Source: an uncultured Bacteroidales bacterium (GTDB lineage Bacteria > Bacteroidota > Bacteroidia > Bacteroidales > Muribaculaceae). From it: a stretch of DNA of 64,000 nt. The notes under the pieces are model-generated. The model worked only from the letters and a program-made list of their open reading frames with translations. It made no database searches and was not told the DNA's origin. Positions within the stretch are counted from its first letter, which is position 1; each line of letters opens with the position of its first letter. Location: positions 1 to 64,000 of the forward strand of contig CADAFP010000012.1 of assembly GCA_902787185.1 (NCBI GenBank). The letters run 5' to 3'. Shown piece after piece: positions 21,413 to 50,217 of the stretch. Position numbers and translations under genes: made by a program.

Positions 21413-22012
21413 TTATTTTATTTCCTTTGCGGGCCAGCCGTAGTCCTGATAGAACTTGACGGGCAGTTTGTTGGCTTTCACATAGTCGGCGATTGAAGCG
21501 GCACGGGCTTTCTCGCGGTAATTCTCATCGCTGTTGGCGGCATGGAAGGCGTCATAGTATTCGCCAAAGATGCGCTTGGCGCTCTCCAGATTGCCGTGTC
21601 CGTCCTCGACCTGCTCAAACGAAACGACCTGGTATTCGCCGTTGTCATTCTTCTTGATCAACATCTTGCCGGGATGGTTACCGCCCGAGACACACTTCAG
21701 GGTATCACCTGCCACCTTGTAGTTGAACACCCAGTAGTCGCCCCACATGAACACGCTGTCGGCCTTCATCCCGTCAGAACACGTCATCGCAATCACGGGA
21801 ATGCACATCTCGCCCGGGGCATATTGTGCCCCAATCGAATCAACCAGATAGTTGTTTATCGCATTGATGATTACGTCACCCTGCTGGGCGGCCTCGGCAG
21901 CCACAGTATCCTCAGCAGCCTTGTCGGCATTAGCATTCCCATTGCAGGAAGTCAAGCAACCAACGCCGCAAAACAGGATGGCGGCCATCATCCATAATCT
22001 CATCTGTTTCAT
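21413..22012 (-). CDS. Lipoprotein of unknown function
   Basis: 199 residues. Signal sequence MKQMRLWMMAAILFCGVGCL with lipobox LTSC (Cys23), then an Asn/Ala linker and a domain with DVIINAINNYLVDSIGAQYAPGEM, VFMWGDYWVFNYKV and LKCVSGGNHPGKM. No family recognised. The end (VKFYQDYGWPAKEIK) is conserved-looking. It shares the first six residues with the exported protein at 19921. Its -7 element TACCTTTG (22043-22050) lies in the arm of a repeat element. Confidence 0.72.
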   Translation of the reverse strand: MKQMRLWMMAAILFCGVGCLTSCNGNANADKAAEDTVAAEAAQQGDVIINAINNYLVDSIGAQYAPGEMCIPVIAMTCSDGMKADSVFMWGDYWVFNYKVAGDTLKCVSGGNHPGKMLIKKNDNGEYQVVSFEQVEDGHGNLESAKRIFGEYYDAFHAANSDENYREKARAASIADYVKANKLPVKFYQDYGWPAKEIK

Positions 22013-22046: not shown

Positions 22047-22112
22047 GGTAGTGCAAGCCGAGCGGAGAATAAAAAGAATTCATTCTTTTTTTATCCCGAG
22101 GCGCAGCCTACC
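22047..22112. repeat. Inverted repeat element A
   Basis: GGTAGTGCAAGCCGA opens and GAGGCGCAGCCTACC closes the element; inside, AATAAAAAGAAT and ATTCTTTTTTTAT pair. The left arm on the minus strand contains the TACCTTTG promoter element of the lipoprotein gene. Confidence 0.7.
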
Positions 22113-22135
22113 TTGCCCGACCAACGGGAGGGAAC

Positions 22136-22260
22136 GGTAGTGCAAGCCGAACACAAAAGCAAATTTTGTGCAAGCCGAAAGCCATGAAAGCTTGTTTTCA
22201 ATGGCTGAGGCGCAGCCAAAATTATACAAATTTATTTGTTTTGTTGAGGCGCAGCCTACC
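22136..22260. repeat. Nested inverted repeat element B
   Basis: It has the same outer arms as element A. Inside are a second GCAAGCCGA and a second GAGGCGCAGCC, so two elements appear nested. AAGCCAT and ATGGCT form the inner hairpin. Confidence 0.7.
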
Positions 22261-22440
22261 TTCGCCGCAGCCCGCCTTTTTGCCGTTGGGCAAACGTGCA
22301 TCTCATACGCTAAAATGCAACTTGACCGTTCGCCAAGTTATCGTGCTAACCTGCTGACTGTGAACATCACCCTTTCACATCGCCTTTTCATGAAAGGTGC
22401 GGGGGAAATGTTAAAAGTGATTAACGGCTCTTTGGCCACA

Positions 22441-22500
22441 CTCCACGGGCAAAGTTACCACAACCACATCCCCCGGTCAACAACAAAATGCAAAATCCAG
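22441..22500. repeat. Left copy of the 60-bp element outside the I-C locus
   Basis: Aligned without gaps to 36340-36399, 52 of 60 bases agree by hand count. Shared runs include CCCCGGTCAAC (with C/G after) and ACAAAATGCAAAATCCA. The two copies are in the same orientation and bracket the whole CRISPR-cas locus. Confidence 0.75.
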
Positions 22501-22597
22501 CGATTATCTTCAACAAACAACCCTAACAATAAAAAAAATAACAGATCAATCTGATTTTTCTGATGGCATCCGCACCCGTCCTCATTTCCATCCAAAT

Positions 22598-22637
22598 GAG
22601 GCCTTTAGACCAGCGACCGATAACGGTCGCAGGCCTC
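22598..22637. terminator. Two-part hairpin at the trailer end of the array
   Basis: GAGGCCT (22598-22604) pairs with AGGCCTC (22631-22637), enclosing GCGACCG-ATAA-CGGTCGC (22613-22630). It ends 2 bases from the last repeat. On the minus strand, the transcribed strand of the array, it could stop the crRNA precursor, but no T-run follows. Confidence 0.5.
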
Positions 22638-22639
22638 GT

Positions 22640-25600
22640 GTTTCAATCCACGCACCCGCGAGGGGTGCGACATCTGTTAACCGAGCAAACGATATGGCAT
22701 TCAAGTTTCAATCCACGCACCCGCGAGGGGTGCGACTGCTTTTCAGTGCCCGTGTTCTCTTCCATGCACAAGTTTCAATCCACGCACCCGCGAGGGGTGC
22801 GACCAAGGGCGTGATCCACGCGATGTGGAACCTCAGGTTTCAATCCACGCACCCGCGAGGGGTGCGACCTCCATGGGCTGCAAGGTCAGGCTGTGTTATG
22901 GCTCAGTTTCAATCCACGCACCCGCGAGGGGTGCGACCGAGACCCTCTGCCCTCATTGCAAGAGGAAGCAGTTTCAATCCACGCACCCGCGAGGGGTGCG
23001 ACGAGGAACTTGCAGCAAAGTACAACCTTGATATCGTTTCAATCCACGCACCCGCGAGGGGTGCGACTGGATTATCGTTATGCTGCTATTGATACACCTA
23101 CAGTTTCAATCCACGCACCCGCGAGGGGTGCGACTGTTCACGTTTTTCAAGGCAATCCATTAGTTCGTTTCAATCCACGCACCCGCGAGGGGTGCGACTG
23201 ACGTGAGGCGCATTCGAGACGCGGAGAGCAAGAGGTTTCAATCCACGCACCCGCGAGGGGTGCGACTTGATAACTTTTTTCAACAACACAATGAATGAGG
23301 CGTTTCAATCCACGCACCCGCGAGGGGTGCGACATCGTGTGGTACGGTGCTTACCGATTCGAGGGCACGTTTCAATCCACGCACCCGCGAGGGGTGCGAC
23401 TTAATCGCATCTTTGCGGTTACTGATACTGATTTTGTTTCAATCCACGCACCCGCGAGGGGTGCGACTGGCTTGCCTCGCTACTATAAACGTAAACTTGA
23501 TGTTTCAATCCACGCACCCGCGAGGGGTGCGACTGAGGAGGTGAAAGAGAAGCCTCCCAACGGGATTAGTTTCAATCCACGCACCCGCGAGGGGTGCGAC
23601 AAGATGACATTTACAGGACAATCGAACGTGGCCTTGTTTCAATCCACGCACCCGCGAGGGGTGCGACCTCAGTGATAATAAATGGAAAGATGCGACACTA
23701 GAGTTTCAATCCACGCACCCGCGAGGGGTGCGACTTATAACGAGTTCTATAGAGACCAAAACCTTGAGTTTCAATCCACGCACCCGCGAGGGGTGCGACA
23801 TGATTTATAATTCTAGAGACAATGACAAATCTGTTTCAATCCACGCACCCGCGAGGGGTGCGACGCATTATTGGTTCGTACCTAACCGCCTCATTTGGTT
23901 TCAATCCACGCACCCGCGAGGGGTGCGACGAGTTACCCCTTTCCGTAATGCATCAACACAATGTTTCAATCCACGCACCCGCGAGGGGTGCGACTGAGCA
24001 ATGCGGTGTCCGTCGATGCCTGTACCGGGTTTCAATCCACGCACCCGCGAGGGGTGCGACCCTCCTAACTGATTGAGTGCAGACAGTAGCGGGCTGTTTC
24101 AATCCACGCACCCGCGAGGGGTGCGACCTTTTTGTCCTTAGTGGTATAGTTTATCATTTCACGTTTCAATCCACGCACCCGCGAGGGGTGCGACTCATGA
24201 ACGAAAGATTAGCAATGATTAGGCAGATGTTTCAATCCACGCACCCGCGAGGGGTGCGACGGCCTATCACCGATTTCATCATCAACCAAGCCTAGTTTCA
24301 ATCCACGCACCCGCGAGGGGTGCGACGAACAAAAGCGGAAAGGAGGTGACCATGGAAGCGTTTCAATCCACGCACCCGCGAGGGGTGCGACTGAGATCTC
24401 CATGGCTGAAGGAAATGCCTATAAGGTGTTTCAATCCACGCACCCGCGAGGGGTGCGACGCGGCACCGTCGCCATCTTTGCCGACAACTACCAGTTTCAA
24501 TCCACGCACCCGCGAGGGGTGCGACGCAACAAGTTTGACAATCCCGAGACGATGGAAGGTTTCAATCCACGCACCCGCGAGGGGTGCGACATGGGCTTGC
24601 TTTTTTGGCGACAGCTGCAAGCAAGGTTTCAATCCACGCACCCGCGAGGGGTGCGACTAGCGTGCTCGACAACTTCAACGGCACAAAGGAAGAGGTTTCA
24701 ATCCACGCACCCGCGAGGGGTGCGACGCGGCGAGGCATCCCCACAGTCCAGCGAACAGGTTGTTTCAATCCACGCACCCGCGAGGGGTGCGACTTGGCAT
24801 GGGTCGGGGAAGTGACGGCACCACCTGTTTCAATCCACGCACCCGCGAGGGGTGCGACCATCGGGTTGGGCTCAATCCTCAACCACGAGCAGTTTCAATC
24901 CACGCACCCGCGAGGGGTGCGACAAGACCACATGCCGTGGTGGTAAGTATTATTCCGGTTTCAATCCACGCACCCGCGAGGGGTGCGACATTACCCACTT
25001 GCCTGTTGCGGGGTCAATGGAGGGTTTCAATCCACGCACCCGCGAGGGGTGCGACTGGCTGATGGACGTCGCGGCCTTGAGTGTGGTGATGTTTCAATCC
25101 ACGCACCCGCGAGGGGTGCGACCCGTGTAGCCGATAGCGCAGCTTGGTTAGTTTAGTTTCAATCCACGCACCCGCGAGGGGTGCGACCTTCTTGCGCTCC
25201 TTGACAGGGAGGTCAAGGAAGTTTCAATCCACGCACCCGCGAGGGGTGCGACGATTAAGTCAAACCCTTAAAGAATATTGAAAACATGTTTCAATCCACG
25301 CACCCGCGAGGGGTGCGACATCATCATGGACAAGAAATTATCCGTCAACATCGTTTCAATCCACGCACCCGCGAGGGGTGCGACTTGACCCAGAAACAAT
25401 CGGCCAGTTCACTGGCTTGTTTCAATCCACGCACCCGCGAGGGGTGCGACTTGCACCATGACACCCAAATGGCCCAAATCGAGGTTTCAATCCACGCACC
25501 CGCGAGGGGTGCGACTCCAGGATGCTCGACTTGTTGCTGGTGAAGTAGATGTTTCAATCCACGCACCCGCGAGGGGTGCGACACCCGTTTCCATGTTCTC

Positions 25601-28428
25601 GATGATAAGTTCAGTGTTTCAATCCACGCACCCGCGAGGGGTGCGACAAGCTAATCGTTTCATCTGCTCCGTTGGCGAGTTGTTTCAATCCACGCACCCG
25701 CGAGGGGTGCGACCGACAACCTTATACATAACACCATCACCATTCTGTTTCAATCCACGCACCCGCGAGGGGTGCGACCGGACGGCGGTTAATGTTAGCA
25801 CGTTCAGCGGCAGTTTCAATCCACGCACCCGCGAGGGGTGCGACCGATGATGTCAACTATCTCTGCGCTCATAGGTTGTTTCAATCCACGCACCCGCGAG
25901 GGGTGCGACGGGGCTGCAAAATCCACAAATATGTTTGTTTCTCGTTTCAATCCACGCACCCGCGAGGGGTGCGACACAGTATCGCCTTGAAGGGCCCGAC
26001 CAACAACGGGTTTCAATCCACGCACCCGCGAGGGGTGCGACAGTACAGGACAATGATGATGACCAAGCTTTTGAGTTTCAATCCACGCACCCGCGAGGGG
26101 TGCGACACTCAACAAGGCACTACCGCACTGGACGGTCAACGTTTCAATCCACGCACCCGCGAGGGGTGCGACCCAAATTTTTTCGCAACTTTTTTTCAAA
26201 AAAATGTTTCAATCCACGCACCCGCGAGGGGTGCGACACGCTCGCGTTGTATTTGTGGCGCTCCTTCATCGAGGTTTCAATCCACGCACCCGCGAGGGGT
26301 GCGACCATTGACACTAAAGTAGTGGTTAGTTGTACAGGTTTCAATCCACGCACCCGCGAGGGGTGCGACACGTCGCCGTCCTCGGTCTCTACCACGCCCT
26401 CATAGTTTCAATCCACGCACCCGCGAGGGGTGCGACACAATGGCGGCGGTGGAGGCGGTGGAGGTTGATCCGTTTCAATCCACGCACCCGCGAGGGGTGC
26501 GACACGTCGAGTTTGTCCGCGTTCATCTGATCCCAGACGTTTCAATCCACGCACCCGCGAGGGGTGCGACCCTCCACACCATTGACATCAATCGTGGCCA
26601 CCTCCATGTTTCAATCCACGCACCCGCGAGGGGTGCGACCGTCCTGGACTGGATGAGGTGCAGCGTTTGAGATGTTTCAATCCACGCACCCGCGAGGGGT
26701 GCGACGCTTTGGTGCAAAGGTACCACGGCAGCCAATGAGGCGTTTCAATCCACGCACCCGCGAGGGGTGCGACAGAGGAGTTTGAACAGCTGAAGCAAGA
26801 ATTGTTGTTTCAATCCACGCACCCGCGAGGGGTGCGACATCAACAACCAGTCCAGCCACAGTGAGATTAAGGTTTCAATCCACGCACCCGCGAGGGGTGC
26901 GACTTCGCCAAGTCGCGCAGTCCGCTATCCTTCAAGGTTTCAATCCACGCACCCGCGAGGGGTGCGACCAATGGCGACAACAACGCTCCACCACGGGCAC
27001 TGTGTTTCAATCCACGCACCCGCGAGGGGTGCGACATGCCGTTGATCCAATAGTAGTTACTGTATCAGGTTTCAATCCACGCACCCGCGAGGGGTGCGAC
27101 CATGTTACCACATTTCTCAAGATAAACCATAGACGGTTTCAATCCACGCACCCGCGAGGGGTGCGACCCAGACCAGGAACAATTATCTGTCATGGCTCGG
27201 GTTTCAATCCACGCACCCGCGAGGGGTGCGACCAAAAACTCATGCGTAAGATGAAACGTGAGGGCAGTTTCAATCCACGCACCCGCGAGGGGTGCGACTT
27301 ATTAAAAAGCTAGGTTTACCTGATACATATTGAGTTTCAATCCACGCACCCGCGAGGGGTGCGACGCAAGGAGTTTAGGAATTAAAAGGATAACATTTAA
27401 GTTTCAATCCACGCACCCGCGAGGGGTGCGACCCTGTGGAGGGCGGCGAGCTTGAGGACGTGTATGTGTTTCAATCCACGCACCCGCGAGGGGTGCGACA
27501 TATGGTTTATAAAACTGACGACAATGGAAACGAGTTTCAATCCACGCACCCGCGAGGGGTGCGACCGTGACCTGTTGCTGCAATTTTCGTACTTAGGTGT
27601 TTCAATCCACGCACCCGCGAGGGGTGCGACAATGCCCAGTTACGTAACATTGACGCTGATACGGTTTCAATCCACGCACCCGCGAGGGGTGCGACATTTC
27701 AACCCGTTGACCCTCACAATCACCCTGATTATGTTTCAATCCACGCACCCGCGAGGGGTGCGACGACTTGCCCATATCTGCGAACATACCTGCGACTGTT
27801 TCAATCCACGCACCCGCGAGGGGTGCGACAAAATTTCACAAACAAAAACAAAAAATGAGTAAAGTTTCAATCCACGCACCCGCGAGGGGTGCGACAACTC
27901 CCGCAGAGTTGTCTATCACGGCATTTCTTGAGTTTCAATCCACGCACCCGCGAGGGGTGCGACGCATTGCTTTTTCGTAAATGGCATCAATCTCGTTGTT
28001 TCAATCCACGCACCCGCGAGGGGTGCGACACGTTGATGGACGCATTCACTTGGTGTCTCTATGGTTTCAATCCACGCACCCGCGAGGGGTGCGACAAAGG
28101 AACGCTCTATGGCAAAACTGGAGGCTTTAAGTTTCAATCCACGCACCCGCGAGGGGTGCGACTTCTTTCTTATTCTTGATTTGTGAGGCCTCAAGAGTTT
28201 CAATCCACGCACCCGCGAGGGGTGCGACTTTTACTTCGTGTCTGCCGTGGCAGCAGCGCGGTGTTTCAATCCACGCACCCGCGAGGGGTGCGACACGTCC
28301 AGAGCGCAGCACGTCAAGCACTCTACAAGTTTCAATCCACGCACCCGCGAGGGGTGCGACACACAGCAGCGCATTACCGGCAATGTGGTCCTCGGGGTTT
28401 CAATCCACGCACCCGCGAGGGGTGCGAC
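22640..28428 (-). CRISPR. Type I-C CRISPR array: 88 repeats, 87 spacers
   Basis: I count 88 copies of a 32-bp repeat. On the plus strand it begins GTTTCAATCCACGC and ends GAGGGGTGCGAC; as transcribed (minus) it begins GTCGCACC and ends GTGGATTGAAAC, the standard I-C form with an internal CGCACCC/GGGTGCG hairpin. First repeat starts 22640, last 28397. Spacers are 32-37 bp, mostly 33-35. Every copy I read looks identical, including the trailer-end one. Cas5c is expected to cut each repeat, leaving an 11-nt 5' handle. The leader and cas2 are at the right end, so new spacers enter near 28.4 kb and the oldest are near 22.7 kb. Confidence 0.98.
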
Positions 28429-28596
28429 TGTATATTAAGAAGATTGCTGATTTTCAAACAGTTCTAAGCAATCTTTTGCGAAATTAGTCAAAAAAAGCCA
28501 AACACAAACAAAAATTCACAAAAAAAACGATCTATGTCCCTATAACTCAATAGCTGCGAAACTTACTATTTTTTGGCTATCACTATAGGTTCGCAG
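28429..28596 (-). promoter_or_regulatory. Leader of the I-C array
   Basis: AT-rich 168 bp between cas2 and the first repeat. A minus-strand promoter-like pair TTTG (28505-28508) and TAATTTC (28480-28486) would start transcripts about 45 bases before the array. Next to the cas2 stop, CTGCGAA (28554-28560) and TTCGCAG (28590-28596) form an inverted repeat; a GCGAACC-type inverted repeat after cas2 is common in I-C leaders as I recall. AGATTGCT/AGCAATCT (28441-28474) forms another arm near the first repeat. Confidence 0.7.
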
Positions 28597-28887
28597 TTAT
28601 ATAATCAATTCACCTTGTATATTAACGCCTTTTTTAACTCCTAATGTCTCTACCTTGGTTTCATAATTTTTCCCTAGACGATAGAATCTGATACTATCTA
28701 TATCTTCTGAAATGATGCCTTTTAAGTTCATTTTTAGTTGAGTGAACTGGGTGAGATCCACGACACATTCAAACACTGAGTTTTGAACCCTTTGGCCATA
28801 ATTCATACATTCCTTCGCTACATGTCTCAACCGACGTTGCCCCTCTGGGCTCGTAGTATCCACATCGTATGTTACTAAAATAAGCAT
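28597..28887 (-). CDS. cas2: CRISPR-associated endonuclease Cas2
   Basis: 96 residues, ferredoxin-like fold. MLILVTYDVDTTSPEGQRRL carries the conserved Asp8, and RVQNSVFECVVDLTQF is the usual second strand-helix. Cas2 dimers bridge Cas1 dimers in the spacer-integration complex. It ends the cas operon, 4 bases after cas1. Confidence 0.96.
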   Translation of the reverse strand: MLILVTYDVDTTSPEGQRRLRHVAKECMNYGQRVQNSVFECVVDLTQFTQLKMNLKGIISEDIDSIRFYRLGKNYETKVETLGVKKGVNIQGELII

Positions 28888-28891
28888 CGTA

Positions 28892-29926
28892 TTACTGTAC
28901 TAAAAAAACAGGGTAATTATCTAAATCTCCACGCAGAAAACGAGCCATTAGCATCGCTTGAATATACGGTAACAATCCAATTGGAACGCTTTCTTTGATA
29001 AATGGATGCATCATCGTGTCTTTTTTTCTTTTTTGCCATGACGCAAGCACCGTTTTCTTGCAGCCATCATTCATGATAATGTTTTCTGCTCCATTTTCAA
29101 CAAAATCTTCAGCTTCTACTTGTTTGCGGTTAATGAGAGACAAGACAAATCTATCGGCCATGTATGCTCTCAATTCTTCCATCATGTCAAGTGCCAATCC
29201 TGCACGGCCAGGTCTATCTGTATGAAGGAAGCCAACATAGGGATCCAGCCCCACAGTTTCGAGTGCAGATTGCATTTCATGAGCTAATAATGTGTAGACA
29301 AATGAAAGCAAACAATTCGTACGGTCTCTCGGCGGTCTCCGGTTTCTACCAATAAATGTGAAAGCAGGTTTTTGCGCGACAATCATGTCATCAAATATTG
29401 AGAAATAATTTACGGCGGCATCACCCTCAACGCCACGCAACTCATTCGCAGATTCGGTATTCATTGCCTGGCGCATATTCACTTTCAGGATATTTGAGAT
29501 GCTTTCAACCCGTGAGAGTTCTTCAGTAGATGAAACATGGTCTCTCTTAAATCGTTCAACTATTTTGCGCGAGTTGTGTATTTTCCCTCTAATCATAATT
29601 TTGCTGATTAGTAGTGCTTTATCCTTATCATCCGCCAACCGATATTGCTTACGCCGCAATAAAACATTGCCATTGGTTCCACCAGTCACCCGTGCCAAAA
29701 AACGTCCGCTCGAAGTTAAGAAGCAAAGGCCTATATTGTGCTCAGCGCACATAGCCATCAAGTACTTGGATGCCCCCAAGTTATTAAAGCACACAATACT
29801 CTCAAGGTTAAGAGCAGGAAGCCTCATCACTTCACGATTCTCAATTTTTGCGACAACGTTATCGCCATCCTTTGACAAAAAGACATCAGGATTTGTCACG
29901 TACAGGGTATTCAGTAATTTCCTCAT
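28892..29926 (-). CDS. cas1: CRISPR-associated endonuclease Cas1 (type I-C)
   Basis: 344 residues from ATG 29926, chosen because it overlaps the cas4 stop as ATGA and begins MRKLLNTLYVTNPDVFLSKD, the normal Cas1c start; the frame is open 22 codons further upstream into cas4. Predicted metal ligands E167 (RGVEGDA), H235 (GFLHTDRPGR) and E250/E251 (LDMMEEL) are intact. It integrates spacers with Cas2 and Cas4. Confidence 0.96.
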   Translation of the reverse strand: MRKLLNTLYVTNPDVFLSKDGDNVVAKIENREVMRLPALNLESIVCFNNLGASKYLMAMCAEHNIGLCFLTSSGRFLARVTGGTNGNVLLRRKQYRLADDKDKALLISKIMIRGKIHNSRKIVERFKRDHVSSTEELSRVESISNILKVNMRQAMNTESANELRGVEGDAAVNYFSIFDDMIVAQKPAFTFIGRNRRPPRDRTNCLLSFVYTLLAHEMQSALETVGLDPYVGFLHTDRPGRAGLALDMMEELRAYMADRFVLSLINRKQVEAEDFVENGAENIIMNDGCKKTVLASWQKRKKDTMMHPFIKESVPIGLLPYIQAMLMARFLRGDLDNYPVFLVQ

Positions 29927-30594
29927 TCTACATCCATTTGTTTTAAATAGTGATTTACGCTCATTGCTCTTTTCATTGAGTTCACGAAACACTTATCTTT
30001 CAATGAGCATGAACGACAATAGCTGTGATACTCTGCTTGTGGAGTAATTCCTGCATCAAACAGTTCATGCATTACAGCCGAGTAGTACCTTACTTGTTCA
30101 CGCAATTTATTCGAGAAGGTTACTGGGATGCGCCTTCTAATAGATTCATAGAAAAAGGCTCCTTCTTGAATACTAATTGTGTACATTTCTTCAAGACACA
30201 AAGCCTGAGCACACAGTTGAACCTCATCAACTTCGTCATGCTTGGGCTTGCCGTGTTTGTACTCAATTGGATAAACAGTCCATCTACCAGGATACTTAGG
30301 AACCTCAATAGTGTTTTCTTCATTCTCGGCAGCAGTGAGTTCAAGTAAATCAGCAATCCCGCTGAAACCAAGCTCATGAGAAACGAGCGCAACAGAACGC
30401 AGGTGTACCACGTTCTTGTTGCGCTCTATAGCACGAGAATTATCTACCTTGCGATGAAGCCAACGTCCCTCGACAGTCAAGTGGTTTTCTTCCCATTGCT
30501 GTTCAATGTGAATCAGTCCCCACTGCCGTGGACAAAAAGCGAAATGTTGAATTCCTGACAACATCAGCAGGTCGTCATCCTCATAATATGCCAT
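29923..30594 (-). CDS. cas4: CRISPR-associated exonuclease Cas4
   Basis: 223 residues. C21 (FAFCPRQW) with C193, C196 and C202 (CRSCSLKDKC) form the iron-sulphur cluster site; D82 (GIADLLEL), E111 and K113 (PIEYKHGKP) and Q126 form the RecB-like nuclease site. Cas4 trims prespacers and helps select PAM-bearing ends. It sits between cas7 and cas1 as in standard I-C loci and overlaps cas1 by 4 bp. Confidence 0.96.
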   Translation of the reverse strand: MAYYEDDDLLMLSGIQHFAFCPRQWGLIHIEQQWEENHLTVEGRWLHRKVDNSRAIERNKNVVHLRSVALVSHELGFSGIADLLELTAAENEENTIEVPKYPGRWTVYPIEYKHGKPKHDEVDEVQLCAQALCLEEMYTISIQEGAFFYESIRRRIPVTFSNKLREQVRYYSAVMHELFDAGITPQAEYHSYCRSCSLKDKCFVNSMKRAMSVNHYLKQMDVE

Positions 30595-30605
30595 GCCCTC
30601 GCTTG

Positions 30606-31454
30606 TTAGATAAGTTCCTCAACCTTTACGCCAGTAGGCAGATGCTCTTTGTCGATGGTCACGGCGTAGTCTACAAATGAGCGGGCTGGCTTAGACTTGT
30701 CCTTTAACTCTATCTTGACAAGGTCAAAGAGTTTGTTGGCAGGGGCGTTGCCCAATACCGAGTCATGCTTGAAGGCAATCAAGCGCTGGGCACTCATCAT
30801 GCCACGTGCTGCTGAACGGTCAACATCAAACATGTTCTTCAATGCGTCAAAGAAAAGGTCAAGGTCTTCCTCACTGAAACCCGTCTGCTGCGCTAAGTTG
30901 GCAGAAATAAAGCCGTGGCAAACATAGAGACCATAAGGAACAGTTGCCTTACGGCCCATGGTGCGTTCTTTCTCAAGATCGGCCTCCTTCGTAACGGCCA
31001 TACGTGTAATCGAGTGTTCAAGAGTTGCAACAGGGTCAATAGAACGTGCAAAGGTCATCTGGATTGGGCCTCTCACTTGATCTTGTTTACCACTAGTGGC
31101 AATCACTGCGCCAAATGTGCGAATATCATAAAAATTACGACACATGACTTTTTTTGCAACTGCCCTTCGTTCATCTTGCGGAGCTTGTGTTATTTCGGAT
31201 AAATCATAAGTCTGATTAACAATACTATCAAGCACGGCTTTCTCCTTGATGAAGATGTCATAGCCAGGAGCAAGTTGCTTGGCAACCTGCACATAGTTGC
31301 GAACTTTGCGCTTGAGGCAAACGTCGGTCACAAGACCCATACCAGTTTCGGCATCCACTCGGGGCAGGTTTCCTGCATCGGGGTCACCATTGGGATTACC
31401 ATCCTGCACATCAAAAATGTACACAAAATCGATTCTGTTCTTTAATTCTAACAT
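30606..31454 (-). CDS. cas7c: Cascade backbone protein Cas7c (Csd2)
   Basis: 282 residues. N-terminal NRIDFVYIFDVQDGNPNGDP is the typical Csd2 opening, and the glycine-rich and RAMP-type segments (GPIQMTFARSIDP, ARGMMSAQRLIAF) follow. Several copies coat the crRNA spacer. Located 11 bases before cas4 and 12 bases after cas8c. Confidence 0.96.
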   Translation of the reverse strand: MLELKNRIDFVYIFDVQDGNPNGDPDAGNLPRVDAETGMGLVTDVCLKRKVRNYVQVAKQLAPGYDIFIKEKAVLDSIVNQTYDLSEITQAPQDERRAVAKKVMCRNFYDIRTFGAVIATSGKQDQVRGPIQMTFARSIDPVATLEHSITRMAVTKEADLEKERTMGRKATVPYGLYVCHGFISANLAQQTGFSEEDLDLFFDALKNMFDVDRSAARGMMSAQRLIAFKHDSVLGNAPANKLFDLVKIELKDKSKPARSFVDYAVTIDKEHLPTGVKVEELI

Positions 31455-31466
31455 AGTTGTAAAGTA

Positions 31467-33167
31467 TTATTGGTTATTGTTGTTTTCTTCTTTCTCATTC
31501 TTGGTGAAAAACGCCTGACGCTGGTGATAGAAACCGACGAAAAAGCGGCCCTGATCTTGAAGGTCGAGATGGGCAGGGAAACCATCAGCGTCAATCTTGT
31601 CGATAATCTCCTGCTTGAGTTGATCAAAAAAGACATTTCTTCCCTCATTCAGTTTCTCGGAATGATGAGACGAGAGATTAAGAATTGTGGCAAACACGGC
31701 AGAGGGCGTCGCACTTGCTGAATTCATGTACCGTTCACGAATGGTGTGCTGATTGTTTGCGTCCTCTTGAATCTTGTCAAGCACAGCAAACAAGCGGCCA
31801 CACAGATAACCTGGATTGGTGTTGTTCTTGTCTAACATAACTTTTATATTTTGTTCATTAATATTGTTGAGTCTATTTAAATATGCCTTGATAATCGCAG
31901 CACGGGTCGTATAGATGCTTTGTTCCGCCCTAATGCGTCTGATGCATTCGGCAAACAAAGTATAAGGATAAGGAATACCTTGAAAAATGCTCTTGACTAA
32001 TGCATCGGGCAAATTGGGAGTCGCATCAGAAGCCTTGCCACCTAAAGTGACAGCGCCCAAGATAGAGCGTAATGCCATGTATGGTTTGTTTGCTCCCGTA
32101 ATCTCCATATCTTCAAAATGGCGATTGATGCGCTCGGCAAATTCCTTCAATGGGATTTCTGCCCAATAAACAACGGCGATTCGCGCGGCATTAGGTGCCA
32201 ACCCCAGGATATAGAACTTGTCATCAAGTGAGGTATTCAACTCTCCTGAGTAAATGGCTTTGAACACTTTTCTCACCTGCTCAATTTTGGCATTAGGGTC
32301 ATCGTCTTCAGCATCAGAGAAACCAAAAATATCAAAGATGCTCTCCTCAGTTTTTCTTCCAGCCTCATCATCGTTGGATGCCCAGAAAACAAAGGTACGA
32401 CTGCCAATTTGAAACTTATTTCGCGAGTTTCTGTCTAGCATATGATTCAGGGCCGTTGAGTAGGCAAATTCCGCTTCTTCACTCACAGGGGCGTTTATGC
32501 CTTGTGAATGACCATAAGAGTCATAGCCCTTCCCGTCCTTAAACGAGACAAGTGAAGTAAACTTATTTCCCTGAAGAGGAATTTTTGAATGCAATCTAGC
32601 GGTAGCACCTTTGACGCCAGTCACCAGACACACATGAGCTTCGCCATTTCCAATTTGATGACTTGAGTAACGGATAACATCGTCATCAGCTGCAGCAATA
32701 GTTGTATTCCCTTGCAACAAGAAAGAGATATTCTTTTTAGAACCCACCATTTCTTGCCACAGAGCGTCACGTTCAACAACTTTCTGTATATTAGGATATC
32801 TATTATAAAAAGCACGGATAGCTTCAACGGTCAGATTGCCAGGAAGATGTCCTTTCAATTCTTCCACCCGCTGCACAAACGCATCTTTACAGTGTCTTGC
32901 TTTATCCATATTGGTCGCTGAATACCCTATCACATAATCACAGTTGTCCCAAAGGAAATTCGCTACAAACTTTCTTCCTGAACGTGGTACAGTTTGACTG
33001 ACCAGATAACGTGTTGCTATTTGATTGTCTATCATTCGGCTCTCGAGACGTAAAAAAGTACCATCTTTATCAATAACAATCAAATATCCAATTTCTTTGA
33101 GTTCGGTACCCATTAATGGCAAATCCGAACTCCTGTGATAATAATCATATAGTGCTTTGAGTATCAT
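31467..33167 (-). CDS. cas8c: Cascade large subunit Cas8c (Csd1)
   Basis: 566 residues, normal for Csd1. It begins MILKALYDYYHRSSDLP, with GYLIVIDKDGTFL and VSQTVPRSGRKFVANFLWDN, conserved in the family. Cas8c recognises the PAM and recruits Cas3; in I-C an internal start can also yield a Cas11c small subunit from the C-terminal part. A candidate Met for that was not resolved here. It overlaps cas5c by 4 bp. Confidence 0.95.
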   Translation of the reverse strand: MILKALYDYYHRSSDLPLMGTELKEIGYLIVIDKDGTFLRLESRMIDNQIATRYLVSQTVPRSGRKFVANFLWDNCDYVIGYSATNMDKARHCKDAFVQRVEELKGHLPGNLTVEAIRAFYNRYPNIQKVVERDALWQEMVGSKKNISFLLQGNTTIAAADDDVIRYSSHQIGNGEAHVCLVTGVKGATARLHSKIPLQGNKFTSLVSFKDGKGYDSYGHSQGINAPVSEEAEFAYSTALNHMLDRNSRNKFQIGSRTFVFWASNDDEAGRKTEESIFDIFGFSDAEDDDPNAKIEQVRKVFKAIYSGELNTSLDDKFYILGLAPNAARIAVVYWAEIPLKEFAERINRHFEDMEITGANKPYMALRSILGAVTLGGKASDATPNLPDALVKSIFQGIPYPYTLFAECIRRIRAEQSIYTTRAAIIKAYLNRLNNINEQNIKVMLDKNNTNPGYLCGRLFAVLDKIQEDANNQHTIRERYMNSASATPSAVFATILNLSSHHSEKLNEGRNVFFDQLKQEIIDKIDADGFPAHLDLQDQGRFFVGFYHQRQAFFTKNEKEENNNNQ

Positions 33168-33859
33168 TTCAACACCTCCTCACTGTCTCTTGGTGGAACA
33201 TTAATCACTCCATTTTCCATGATGGCATGATAGAACATGGCATCGGGCTTATTCACATTCCCATCAAAGTCTATATCGTAAAGCATCAAGCCCAAATCAC
33301 GACTGTCGTTGTAGGGTGCGCTCAATTCCTCTTGTTCGGGATTTATAAGGCGGAATGACGCCGAGCACTCCCGGGTGCCGAGATAAGGCTGGTTAAAGCA
33401 TTGCCCTTTACTTGCCCTACGCTCAAACATCGCATTGTACTTGCCAGGGTTCTCATCCTTGCGCAAGAAATCTTTTTCCTCCTTGTCAATCAATGGATTC
33501 TTGCTCTCGGCACGCTTGCTGACAGGGATAAATTCAAGTTTAGCCCAAATGCGGTAGCGCACATCCTGCAACATCAAGGTGTTCTTTTGCTGTCTCTTCT
33601 CCTCAATGAAAACAGGCTTGGATGCGACAGCACCCACCTCGTTGCGACGGATTGATGTCCACTTGATGGGATTGAGCACTTCAATTTTGGTCACCTGCCA
33701 TCTGATGGCTGGTTTCCAAAAGATAGCCTCAAAGATGGCTCGTGCAGCCGATGGCGTGATGACATCATAGCTCACACGCTCCACCTTGAGTTCTGGTCGG
33801 GTAAAGCAGGCGATTGGCCCCCATACCTCCAAGCAAAATTCTTTATCAAAATGTTCCAT
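33164..33859 (-). CDS. cas5c: Cas5c (Cas5d), crRNA-processing endoribonuclease
   Basis: 231 residues. CLEVWGPIACFTRPELKVERVSYDVITPSAARAIFEAIFWKP is the I-C Cas5 N-terminal signature. In type I-C, Cas5 replaces Cas6 as the enzyme that cuts pre-crRNA, and no cas6 is present here, consistent with that. The ATGA overlap with cas8c shows translational coupling. Confidence 0.95.
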   Translation of the reverse strand: MEHFDKEFCLEVWGPIACFTRPELKVERVSYDVITPSAARAIFEAIFWKPAIRWQVTKIEVLNPIKWTSIRRNEVGAVASKPVFIEEKRQQKNTLMLQDVRYRIWAKLEFIPVSKRAESKNPLIDKEEKDFLRKDENPGKYNAMFERRASKGQCFNQPYLGTRECSASFRLINPEQEELSAPYNDSRDLGLMLYDIDFDGNVNKPDAMFYHAIMENGVINVPPRDSEEVLK

Positions 33860-33866
33860 ATCGATA

Positions 33867-36044
33867 TTATATGATTAATGTTTCTTCTAACCATTGGTTG
33901 TCGGTGATTAAGCCGACCTTATCATCATAGAGTGACTCTTTAGAGAGTACCCAAATGCCATTTATTTCTTCCAATGCCCCTGCATCGTTCAGTGTCTGGA
34001 AATCTTTCTTCCTCACACTGACGGCATATTGTGACAATTTCTTCAAAAGAGGATAGGAAGGTTCACTGCGCTTGAGTTCTTCAACAAGTGCTCTACCGCC
34101 ATCACGCTGAATGAAAATGCTTGTGGTATCATCATCAATCAAGTGGAATTGGGCGGCAGCTTCCTGGAATTGCATTTCAGTTGGTTTATAAAGCAATTGT
34201 CCAATTTGATTCTTGTCAAAACTCTCAGTCCTTGAAAACAGTTGGGCAAAATAGTCACGCATCGTCTCAGGCGCGAACCAATCAAATGCACCCACCATAT
34301 TGAGTCGAGCATTATTGGCTTGAGAGATATAGCCTGGTGGCAATCGATGCTCACAGCGCAGACTGAAAACATGAGTTGTGCAAATGCCTCGTCTGCCCTC
34401 GCGGTTGCAACGACCAGCCGCTTGCAAGACGGAATCAAGCCCAGCCTCTTGACGATAAACGACAGGAAAATCAATATCCACACCCGCCTCAATCAGTTGT
34501 GTAGCCACCACACGGATAATCGGTTGATTATCGTCCTTAAGTGCTGCCTTAATTGTCTCGATGGTCTCACGCACATGAGCGGGATACATCATGCGAGACA
34601 AGTGCAGGGTCAAGCCTTCCTGGGTCAAGCGTTCAAACAGTTCTTTGGCATCCCTGCGGGTGTTCACAATACACAACACCCGATCATGCTGAGCGATTTG
34701 CCGTGCAACTTCATCATAGGTTTGAGGAGCGTTGTTGATATCAAGTTCCACCCGTCGCAACTTGTCATGCAAGCGGGCATCGGCCGGTATGATTTCATGG
34801 ACATGTGGCAACGCTTTAAATTGGTTTAATCTGTTTGTGCCCCTTATAGTGCCATCAAGAATGGGTTGGCTTGCTGTTGTGAACAGGAATGATGTGCCAA
34901 AGACATTCTTCAACGACTTGAACGTGTTGATGATGGGTTGCAAGAATTCCAGTGGCAACGTCTGCACCTCATCAAGAATCACCACACTTTTGGCGATATT
35001 GTGCAATTTGCGGCATTGTGACGGCTTGTTGCTGAACAAGGATTCAAAGAAGCGCACGTTAGTCGTCACCACTATGGGGTAATCCCAGTTTTCGGTTGCA
35101 AGTTGAAGTTGCTTGGTGATTTCTTTATTTCCCTCGTCATCATATTCAACATTGGAGTGGTGCTCCAACACATTTTCTTCACCAAAAATCGCTTTCAGCG
35201 TCGCGGCGGTTTGGACGATGATACTGGTATAAGGGATTGCGATAATGATGCGTTGCAGGTCATTTTTCACCGCATGACGCAATGCCCACAACAGCGAGGA
35301 CAGCGTTTTGCCGCCACCCGTGGGAACCGTGAGGCTGTAGTAATCAATATCACCGTTGCTTTGCTCCTTACAGCACTGCTGGACATATCGCCTGATGCGG
35401 TTGACCTCGGTGTCAGGGGCGCTCTCATTCAGCTTATCAAGATGCGCTTCAAGCTTTGAGCACAACTCCTTCATACTCGTTTTTGTGCCGCGCAGACGAT
35501 TCTGCTCAGGCATCATGAACGCCTCAGTATCTAAATAATCGGCATCCACAAGGCAGCTAAAGAGCATCCTCACCAAGTGATGCATATCCTCTTTGGAAAG
35601 CGGTGTTGAGGGGGCTTTCAGTTGTCCGGTTATTGAGGGAATGGTCACCTCGGCAGGAATGTCTTGTTTCAACAACTCTATCCATTCGCCATCGTTATAG
35701 AGACCACGATGATGCCCCATAATGATATTTGACAGTATTGGTGTTGCTGGCCTAAAAAGCCGATGAGCAACAAGACCTCCCACATAGGCATGACTGAAAT
35801 CGCCCTCAACCTTCACATCTGGACAATAACCACTCTCTTTCTTGATATGCTGCTGGAATGACTGTCGCTCTTTTCCGATATCATGCAATAGACCAAGCAC
35901 CCTGCCCCACTCGCCCATTCCAAAGGCATCGGCAAATCTTGATGCCAACTCAGCGACACCTCGCTGATGATCCTCATTGGATTGAATCGACCAATTCCCG
36001 GTTGACCCTTTGATGTGTGATATGATAACTTCTATACTTTTCAT
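33867..36044 (-). CDS. cas3: Cas3 nuclease-helicase (type I-C)
   Basis: 725 residues. N-terminal HD nuclease: H54-D55 in LGLLHDIGKERQSF, with HAYVGGLVAH and IMGHHRG further on. SF2 helicase: Walker A PTGGGKT (241-247), DEVQ (358-361, motif II), and the late QAAGRCNREGRRG motif VI near 545. It is recruited to R-loops and degrades target DNA. First gene of the operon, with a consensus promoter 40 bases upstream. Confidence 0.96.
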   Translation of the reverse strand: MKSIEVIISHIKGSTGNWSIQSNEDHQRGVAELASRFADAFGMGEWGRVLGLLHDIGKERQSFQQHIKKESGYCPDVKVEGDFSHAYVGGLVAHRLFRPATPILSNIIMGHHRGLYNDGEWIELLKQDIPAEVTIPSITGQLKAPSTPLSKEDMHHLVRMLFSCLVDADYLDTEAFMMPEQNRLRGTKTSMKELCSKLEAHLDKLNESAPDTEVNRIRRYVQQCCKEQSNGDIDYYSLTVPTGGGKTLSSLLWALRHAVKNDLQRIIIAIPYTSIIVQTAATLKAIFGEENVLEHHSNVEYDDEGNKEITKQLQLATENWDYPIVVTTNVRFFESLFSNKPSQCRKLHNIAKSVVILDEVQTLPLEFLQPIINTFKSLKNVFGTSFLFTTASQPILDGTIRGTNRLNQFKALPHVHEIIPADARLHDKLRRVELDINNAPQTYDEVARQIAQHDRVLCIVNTRRDAKELFERLTQEGLTLHLSRMMYPAHVRETIETIKAALKDDNQPIIRVVATQLIEAGVDIDFPVVYRQEAGLDSVLQAAGRCNREGRRGICTTHVFSLRCEHRLPPGYISQANNARLNMVGAFDWFAPETMRDYFAQLFSRTESFDKNQIGQLLYKPTEMQFQEAAAQFHLIDDDTTSIFIQRDGGRALVEELKRSEPSYPLLKKLSQYAVSVRKKDFQTLNDAGALEEINGIWVLSKESLYDDKVGLITDNQWLEETLII

Positions 36045-36085
36045 TGTATTTGTAATTATTAGGCATCATTCACTATTTGATAACG

Positions 36086-36116
36086 CAAAGTTAGTTGTTT
36101 GCGCCATTAATCCCAA
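36086..36116 (-). promoter_or_regulatory. Promoter of the cas operon
   Basis: Minus strand: TTG (36114-36116), 20 bp, TAACTTTG (36086-36093), about 40 bases before the cas3 ATG. Confidence 0.82.
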
Positions 36117-36339
36117 ATAAAGTTATTGACACCTTATTTCTTGCAAAATAAACACATAGGAGTGTCAAATCTTGGCACTGCTGATTTATTTTTTGTTAAT
36201 TGTGCTTTTTATGCCTGTCTTTCCCCTGTAATAACTTGACAGATTTGAGAGCGATTAACTAAGTTGGTTTACACTCATTTTATCGTTCGCCTAAACTGGG
36301 TTGACAGTTTGGCGGTTTTATCACTGATTGGGTTTACAG

Positions 36340-36399
36340 CTCTACGGGCAAAGTGACCATGACCACAGACCCCGGTCAACGACAAAATGCAAAATCCAA
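36340..36399. repeat. Right copy of the 60-bp element outside the I-C locus
   Basis: Direct-orientation partner of 22441-22500 (52/60 by hand count). Its last bases run straight into the first V-A-like repeat unit. Confidence 0.75.
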
Positions 36400-36559
36400 T
36401 AGTAGAAATTCTTAGGGTCTTCTAGACAACTGGTGCGTGATTGAATCTCACAATACTTTCTACAATTATAGAAATTTGAGTAGTCACTTAGACATGATGC
36501 AACCGATAACGGTTGCATTGAGATCTACAATAGTAGAAATTATTTGGGTCTTATAGAAC
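36394..36559 (-). CRISPR. Candidate decayed type V-A (Cas12a-like) mini-array, 3 units
   Basis: On the minus strand three 34-37 bp units are 29-30 bp apart. Unit at 36523-36559 begins GTTCTATAAGACCC and ends AATTTCTACTATTGTAGAT, the Cas12a repeat 3' end with stem TCTAC/GTAGA. Unit 36458-36493 begins GTCTAAG and ends TTTCTATAATTGTAGAA (stem kept by a G-U pair). Unit 36394-36427 begins GTCTAGAAGACCC but ends CTACTATTGGAT (stem broken). Unit and spacer lengths fit V-A arrays. No cas12a lies in the window. One 'spacer' (36494-36522) contains a perfect hairpin, so it may not be a normal spacer. Confidence 0.7.
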
Positions 36560-36742
36560 GAGCCTGAGGCTCGCAATAGATTGACAACTGCCTCGTGTGA
36601 ATGGGGGTTCCTCGCTTCTCTTTGTCGCCTGATTGACAGGGGGATACTCAAATGGCCGCCCTTTGGGCGTCTGCCACCACTCGCTATATTCCGAGACTCA
36701 ACAAAATTTGGTGCGGTTGCCCTGCAAAAAGGGCGGGGAATC

Positions 36743-36773
36743 TTGGATATGTCGATTTTTTTGTGTAGTTTTG
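36743..36773 (+). promoter_or_regulatory. Promoter of the four-helix membrane protein
   Basis: TTG (36743-36745), 20 bp, TAGTTTTG (36766-36773). Confidence 0.65.
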
Positions 36774-36847
36774 TGGTGTCCTTGTGTGGTCTAATGGATA
36801 GACAGATTAATAGCAAGGTTGTTTTAACGGTTAAAAATCAGAGCATT

Positions 36848-37408
36848 ATGAAACCCGAAGACCATTTCGACGAGAATCATGTCCCTACCGAGGAGGATTT
36901 CGCCCCCGGGCAGGTCGATGAGAAAGAAGAGTCGCGCAAGTTCATCAAGAAGAGCTGCCGTGCCCATAGCGTCTTTTACATCATTATGGGCATCATATTT
37001 CTTATGAACGGCATTATCAATATCGACAGTGTGAGCGACAGCAAACTGTACCAGTGCCCGCTCATTGCCTTGATGCTGGTGTCGGCCATCGCCATGGGCT
37101 TTTATGCCCTCATCTATGAGAGAATCCGCCGAGCCTCGACAGCGAGGGAGATGAAGAAGTTCACCGATCTGACGAGCGCCAATACCCTGTTTTCGAAACT
37201 CATCCTCATCACCATGACGCTATGCATTATCGTCGCCGCTGTTTTAGGGCTGATTGACAAGACCTCTTGGTATGTCATCGTGCTGGCTGTTATTGTCATC
37301 GGCGCACTTATTGGCGGGCTGTGGTGGCTCATCAAGGACTCAGACAAGAAAGATGCCTGCGATATCGAAATCGAGAAATTACTGGCCCTGGAAGAGGGAG
37401 AAAACTAA
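36848..37408 (+). CDS. Four-helix inner membrane protein of unknown function
   Basis: 186 residues from ATG 36848 (MKPEDHFDENHVPTEEDF). The upstream open frame to 36581 passes through the promoter and repeats and is rejected. An acidic N-terminus is followed by four membrane helices at about 42-60, 72-95, 118-138 and 143-163, with short loops and a basic/acidic cytoplasmic tail (IKDSDKKDACDIEIEK). No family recognised. Confidence 0.72.
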   Translation: MKPEDHFDENHVPTEEDFAPGQVDEKEESRKFIKKSCRAHSVFYIIMGIIFLMNGIINIDSVSDSKLYQCPLIALMLVSAIAMGFYALIYERIRRASTAREMKKFTDLTSANTLFSKLILITMTLCIIVAAVLGLIDKTSWYVIVLAVIVIGALIGGLWWLIKDSDKKDACDIEIEKLLALEEGEN

Positions 37409-49464: not shown

Positions 49465-50217
49465 GCGCAGGTATTCTTCGGCACGTGCGAGGTCCTCGGG
49501 GGTGTCGATGCCGATGGTGGCGGTCGTGGTTATGCCCGCCTTGATGATATAGCCGTTCTCGAGCCAGCGCAACTGCTCGAGCGACTCGGCCAGTTCCAGC
49601 GGCGACTGTGGCAAGCGCGTGATTTCGGCCAATACGGCGGCACGGTAGGCATACATACCCACATGGGTATAGTATTGCGTCGCCTTGGGCCATTCGTCGC
49701 GTTCACGGCCACGGATGTAGGGGATGACCGAGCGCGAGAAGTAACGGGCGCGCATCTGGTTATCAAGCACTACCTTGGGGCTGTTGGGATTCTCCAGTTC
49801 GCTATAGGGACGACTGGGGTCGAAGGGGCGCACCAGCGTGGCGATGTCGGTTCCCTCGTCGTCAAAGCAGGCCATGATGGCTTGCAGCTGGTCAGGCTGG
49901 ATGAACGGTTCATCGCCCTGGATGTTGATGATGACGTCCTCGCCCCCACCATTCTTCAGGTAGGCCTCTTGACAGCGGTCGGTGCCGCTGCGGTGTTCGG
50001 TGCTCGTCATCACCGCCTTGCCGCCGAAGGCCTCCACCGCCGCCATGATGCGGTCATCGTCGGTAGCGACCACCACACGGTCGAGCGCCTTGCTCACCTG
50101 GCGGTAAACCCGTTCAATCATCGTCATGCCACCGAGCATCGCCAGCGGCTTCCCCGGAAACCTCGTCGAGGCAAACCTCGCCGGTATAATCCCAATAAAT
50201 GTCAATTTCTGTTCCAT
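49456..50217 (-). CDS. kdsB: 3-deoxy-manno-octulosonate cytidylyltransferase
   Basis: 253 residues. GIIPARFASTRFPGKPLAML is the nucleotidyltransferase opening, with VVATDDDRI, TSTEHRSGTDRC and NIQGDEPFI later, all KdsB motifs. It activates Kdo as CMP-Kdo for lipid A core synthesis in the cytoplasm. It starts 9 bases after the YhcG-type gene. Confidence 0.95.

Follow-up and report, generated by a model that had tools for sequence, protein, structure and literature searches.

Probable relic of a type V-A CRISPR array beside a complete type I-C locus in an uncultured Muribaculaceae bacterium

Results

Organization of the locus

The window analysed here is a stretch of 64,000 nucleotides from the assembly of an uncultured Muribaculaceae bacterium. 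It carries a type I-C CRISPR-Cas locus and, on the minus strand between cas3 and a flank gene at 36848, three repeat units of the type V-A kind. The features of the region are listed below by window position.

22053..36757, no strand assigned: insertion of 14.5-14.7 kb relative to congener sites, with the I-C locus and the V-A relic
22441..22499, plus strand: left copy (DR-L) of a 59-bp direct repeat, past the distal end of the I-C array
22640..28428, minus strand: type I-C CRISPR array, 88 perfect repeats by repeat count
28597..36044, minus strand: type I-C operon cas3-cas5c-cas8c-cas7-cas4-cas1c-cas2, from NCBIfam models
36340..36398, plus strand: right copy (DR-R) of the 59-bp direct repeat, which meets unit 3 and has 2 letters in common with it
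36394..36427, minus strand: unit 3, V-A repeat shortened at its 3' end, at the edge of DR-R (27.6 bits)
36428..36457, minus strand: spacer 2, 30 nt, with a stretch resembling part of the I-C repeat by sequence comparison
36458..36493, minus strand: unit 2, degenerate V-A repeat whose fold retains the stem by means of a U-G pair (26.5 bits)
36494..36522, minus strand: "spacer 1", 29 nt, folding as hairpin ATGCAACCG-TTAT-CGGTTGCAT with perfect 9-bp arms
36523..36558, minus strand: unit 1, intact V-A (Cas12a-type) repeat with the exact core AATTTCTACTATTGTAGAT (46.2 bits)

The genes cas3, cas5c, cas8c, cas7, cas4, cas1c and cas2 all scored over the NCBIfam cut-offs. With these seven cas genes and the 88 perfect repeats the I-C locus is complete, as an earlier note on this DNA had described it. 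Spacer 58 of the I-C array (plus-strand numbering) has a 17-nt exact match to window positions 50030-50046, a possible partial self-match.

Repeat units

The earlier note had claimed three Cas12a-type units on the minus strand with a spacing of 29-30 bp. These were recovered between 36394 and 36558, with unit 1 as the best copy. With up to 3 mismatches allowed, the 19-mer core matched three times in the window and in none of 100 dinucleotide-preserving shuffles. A covariance model with a 5-bp stem, R1, was built from seven V-A repeats of five other genomes (three congeners, one from another genus of the family and one Spirochaetia MAG), none of them from the window. R1 scored units 1, 3 and 2 at 46.2, 27.6 and 26.5 bits in the window, the next match reaching 8.6 bits. 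Across the 3.22-Mb assembly the units were the top three matches with E-values of 6.3e-8, 0.003 and 0.006 (1.3e-9 for unit 1 in the window), and the fourth-best match scored 16.3 bits (E 2.4). The comparison with V-A repeats of other genomes thus came out in favor of V-A identity. The assignment of the three units to Cas12a-type (V-A) repeats is supported by this independent model, and also by the genuine cas12a loci of four congeners, each with its V-A array. Rfam gave no match in the window, and no R1-type repeat was found in viral contigs.

As in a V-A array, the units have a repeat with a AATTTCTACTNTTGTAGAT-type core and a 3' stem, recognized by the model built without the window, and regular spacing with unique spacers. 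They are not near-identical. Over an ungapped 30-nt reference, unit 2 was 63% and unit 1 90% identical to unit 3. The fold of unit 2 bore out the G-U pair that had been proposed to keep its stem. Unit 3 kept its 5' half and core and lost its 3' end where the 59-bp direct repeat starts. Both units score below the internal repeats of intact arrays, which gave at least 40.7 bits under R1. Decay had been thought to increase away from the best copy; this did not hold, as units 2 and 3 are worn about equally and wear is not graded along the array. The final units of four congener V-A arrays scored 14.1-20.8 bits under R1. Intact V-A arrays of the genus can end in a degenerate unit as well, so that the wear of unit 3 does not by itself prove truncation by the I-C block.

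Spacers and hairpins

The two spacers, of 29 and 30 nt, are unlike each other and fall within the 26-34 nt of 69 reference V-A spacers, a set made up of those caught by repeat patterns and lacking at least one spacer of genome G266 and the neighbors of degenerate repeats. Spacer 1 folds at -13.7 kcal/mol (z -6.8). Perfect arms of at least 7 bp were found in none of the 69 V-A spacers and in one of 87 I-C spacers. In folding energy spacer 1 stands out less, as -13 kcal/mol was reached by one of the 69 and two of the 87. The hairpin is in itself no proof of function. According to PMC8478413, a structured spacer in a Cas12a array impaired the guide that followed it when tested in human cells, and the natural separator part of the repeat was proposed to insulate against this.

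Unit 1 has hairpins on either side, and a dispersed short hairpin adjoins it. The hairpin core ACCGATAACGGT occurs at 22613-22630, beside the last I-C repeat, and at 36499-36516, beside unit 1. The arms of the two copies carry matched changes, and a direct-repeat copy lies 113 nt from the first and 100 nt from the second; the sequence between hairpin and direct repeat is unrelated at the two sites. The sole third copy of the 12-nt hairpin core in the assembly is in an apparently coding stretch.

In spacer 2, positions 36432-36445 aligned to part of the I-C repeat with one gap and 14 matching columns out of 15. This was equalled by 2 of 2000 region shuffles and by none of 602 further stretches of the window, counted with the I-C array set aside. 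No exact match was found in viral contigs for the one 20-mer searched per spacer. I-C spacers compared with V-A loci and foreign V-A spacers compared with the window gave short matches, with best E-values of 0.002 and 0.004, respectively.

Region upstream of cas3

The relic units lie 350-514 nt upstream of cas3 and are co-directional with it. A V-A unit in this position was absent from 11 of 13 other I-C loci, those readable over at least 836 bases; the other two, in G412 and G367, had too few bases upstream of cas3 (279 and 418). Since no such unit occurs in the 11 readable loci, the V-A units are not part of the I-C system, and a conserved part of an I-C promoter was rejected on the same count. 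Homology upstream of cas3 to the I-C locus of G044 stops at about 36309, where the contig of G412 ends. A window-like cas3 was found in 14 of 101 genus genomes and cas12a in 4; the two sets are disjoint, and the overlap expected by chance is less than one genome.

The direct repeat and the edges of the I-C block

DR-L and DR-R, with ends set by strict alignment, are 88% identical over 59 bp, lie 13.9 kb apart and bracket the I-C array and operon. The assembly contains these two copies and one 18-nt match, and there was no match at E of 0.001 or less in 100 other genus genomes. The ORFs of at least 150 aa between the copies were cas genes and array-derived frames only, and no integrase was noticed.

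A same-orientation direct repeat of such size was found at none of four other I-C loci readable at both ends. One of the four had a 19-bp same-orientation match, two had inverted matches only and one had none, and the direct repeat was rejected as a general edge of I-C modules. The inverted matches at I-C loci were of 18 bp, and of up to 47 bp in G010. G034 stood outside this comparison with too few repeats in its stretch. As the direct repeat is not a standard I-C edge, the order of events would rest on one case.

The left flank was also considered as a second copy of the relic and rejected, as 1404 of 2000 shuffles were as good locally and 1966 of 2000 globally. A wider comparison that included the hairpin was equalled by 4 of 500 shuffles. 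Apart from the direct repeat and the hairpin, the left flank and the relic are unlike.

Within the genus, I-C and V-A arrays have short sequences in common at their downstream ends (window 22500-22640; L063 10669-11077; L064 11000-11200). Among these array-end pieces, GCGGATGCC is also dispersed between genes and AATCAGATTRATCTG occurs twice in 221 kb. At least one matching piece is dispersed between genes, with 17 matches in 221 kb. The trailer of the window I-C array against that of the G037 V-A array, and G044 I-C against G036 V-A, were each equalled by 0 of 200 shuffles; window I-C against G036 V-A was equalled by 8 of 200, and other cross-type pairs by 45-93 of 200. A common "array trailer" of I-C and V-A arrays was considered and not adopted.

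Insertion site in relatives

The flank gene at 36848-37405 had a match in 15 of 100 other genus genomes. Thirteen of these 15 congeners have an orthologue of the gene at 21413-22012 within 1.8 kb, then cinA, with no V-A-like repeat; in G450 another gene lies between the flank genes. At seven sites with homology to both edges the two homologies are 42-95 bp apart, compared to about 14.7 kb in the window, where 22053-36757 separates them. In G009 the left homology extends to 22264, and the insertion possibly starts at 22265, giving about 14.5 kb. Judged from these site comparisons, the I-C array, the I-C operon and the V-A relic lie together in one insertion.

No V-A locus was found at the relic site in the relatives. 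G036 and G037 have the site without V-A repeats, their V-A locus being on another contig. G421 and G266 had no match to the flank gene and thus fell outside the site comparison. Flank similarity to V-A loci in relatives, whose lack the earlier note had named as counting against its reading, was not found for G036, G037 or G266, a result against a shared ancestral locus. The only window match of the G266 V-A stretch was Cas1 to Cas1. In the V-A stretch of G421 the only orthologues are those of genes that lie 18-21 kb away from the relic, and they are on the opposite side. A shared ancestral V-A site with G421 was rejected, as orthologues of the genes at 15.2-18.0 kb lie near its cas12a but with cas12a on the other side. 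Since flank similarity is lacking and the site in G036 and G037 is free of V-A repeats, V-A would have either reached the relic site separately or been lost in the relatives.

Search for cas12a

The cas12a model gave no match at E of 1 or less in the assembly, which is 80.86% complete. The absence of cas12a from the window was upheld with five Cas12a query proteins, the best E-value being 0.39; two of the queries were profile-tested, two were found by profile and the Spirochaetia one was used without a profile test.

Four of 101 genus genomes (G036, G037, G421 and G266) have cas12a over the curated cut-off. In all four it lies 30 bp to about 2 kb from a V-A array; the arrays have 16, 11, 20 and 16 repeats. 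Of 397 genomes sampled from the family, 5 contained the exact core, among them the relic's own genome. The V-A loci of G036, G037 and G421 (L063, L064-L065 and L066-L067) look minimal, with cas12a beside the array and no obvious cas1 among ORFs of at least 200 aa in the fetched stretches (no profile test). In G266 (L106 4333-5172) a Cas1 relative lies between cas12a and the array. G274, which belongs to a different genus of the family, carries a V-A-like array of two units close to the end of a contig (L068 5009-5096); one of these units lacks its 5' half and scores 31.6 bits under R1.

The relic resembles the V-A arrays of the four congeners in its core, 5-bp stem, 36-37-nt repeat, spacer length (theirs 26-34 nt) and degenerate last unit. 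It differs in that theirs have 11-20 near-identical repeats with cas12a within about 2 kb, whereas its own three units are unlike one another, are without cas12a and have no immediate flanks in common with them.

Discussion

The relic is most likely the decayed trailer end of a V-A array that is without its effector. The earlier note had left two options, an orphan array served by a Cas12a elsewhere in the genome and a fossil of a system replaced by I-C. The fossil is favored because there is no assembled cas12a, two of the three repeats are worn, and a self-folding spacer follows the sole intact repeat. A V-A array would formerly have stood in this intergenic site, and cas12a and everything on the leader side of unit 1 would since have gone, cas12a having been lost rather than never present. 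At its far end the array breaks off with unit 3, where the 59-bp direct repeat has its edge. In the simplest history the event that placed or rearranged the I-C block, and with it created the right edge, would also have trimmed the V-A array. Replacement by I-C, as the earlier note put it, thus gains physical support from the joint insertion and from the direct-repeat edge at unit 3, while the replacement itself is an interpretation of that arrangement.

The same three points (no Cas12a in sight, two of three repeats damaged and a self-folding guide after the intact one) make the remnant probably unused. In the absence of Cas12a no crRNA would be made, and with Cas12a the guide of unit 1 would be expected to fold on itself. 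Against a fossil stands the completeness of the genome of 80.9%, as cas12a could sit in the absent part of about 19%. The lack of a V-A locus at this site in relatives also counts against it.

A further reading, for which we see a modest chance, is that the I-C block is a unit bracketed by the direct repeat which entered, or recombined into, the V-A array, one CRISPR type being displaced in situ. The I-C-like stretch in spacer 2 is a lead for such an exchange and no proof of function. If the exchange did take place, both edges of the scar would be readable, and the shared hairpin and the I-C-like stretch would be its traces.

It is unlikely that the array is an orphan that still works, with a Cas12a encoded elsewhere processing and using unit 1 and perhaps unit 2. 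Unit 1 is canonical, and the unassembled part of the genome leaves room for such a gene. The assembled part has none, however, and the gene is present in only 4 of 101 genus genomes, in each of them no more than about 2 kb from its array. Spacer 1 is self-folding, and upstream of unit 1 the minus strand of 36561-37000 contained no Bacteroidales promoter consensus at up to 2 substitutions.

A crRNA-like regulator of the CreR/CreA type, which guides a Cas effector to the cas promoter, is highly improbable. Such regulators have been reported for type I and type V-A systems (PMC12737573), and the few, degenerate units upstream of and co-directional with cas3 would suit one, as would the I-C-like stretch of spacer 2. 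The PAM of Cas12a is TTTV, and a scan of the window with either spacer gave TTTV-adjacent seeds of at most 5 nt. This is chance level, as shuffled spacers did as well, with seeds that averaged 4.95 and 5.25 nt and reached 7 and 9. Near the cas3 promoter the seeds were of at most 2 nt. The unit is absent beside the cas operon in 11 of 13 I-C loci of relatives, and its repeats are of V-A type in a genome where no Cas12a was found. Compared with CreR/CreA as described in PMC12737573, the relic likewise has crRNA-like units near a cas operon; it differs in having no seed match at the cas3 promoter and a repeat type unfit for the resident Cas proteins.

The chance that the units are a Racr (a repeat-mimic RNA anti-CRISPR) or a mini-array carried in by a mobile element is smaller still. 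A Racr mimics a single repeat, and examples for V-A are known (PMC10651486); the hairpins on both sides of unit 1 would be in keeping with one. The relic resembles Racrs in having repeat-like units apart from a matching Cas; it differs in having three units at V-A period rather than one, in its chromosomal setting and in the lack of phage or plasmid matches. Its flanks are conserved chromosomal genes and the CRISPR locus. A search of 50,697 phage and 72,556 plasmid records with positions 36310-36760 gave no match at E of 0.01, and carriage by a phage, plasmid or other mobile element was not detected, although the whole 14.5-14.7-kb insertion may once have been mobile. A chance origin or a plain dispersed repeat, for which the dispersed hairpin adjoining unit 1 might speak, is made most improbable by the 0 of 100 shuffles, by the genome-wide R1 E-value of unit 1 (6e-8) and by the three-unit block occurring once in the assembly, where the earlier note had proposed many unrelated copies as the contrary outcome.

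Isolated CRISPR arrays have been described as remnants of lost cas loci in PMC5294841. The decayed array considered here is like the likely orphan of that paper in standing without companion cas genes and in a repeat unlike that of the active system. It differs in lying inside an insertion with a complete system of another type and in being cut where a direct repeat has its edge. The locus was not reported anywhere in the literature searched, to which most subscription journals did not belong.

The kind of remnant is thus already known, and its legible edge against the I-C block is what is worth keeping. The relic and the I-C locus together are no new system; they offer a small example of succession that can be tested. 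Turnover among CRISPR types is as a rule deduced from the distribution of systems over genomes. At this locus a single piece of DNA carries the older type, the newer type and a candidate for the edge of the cut.
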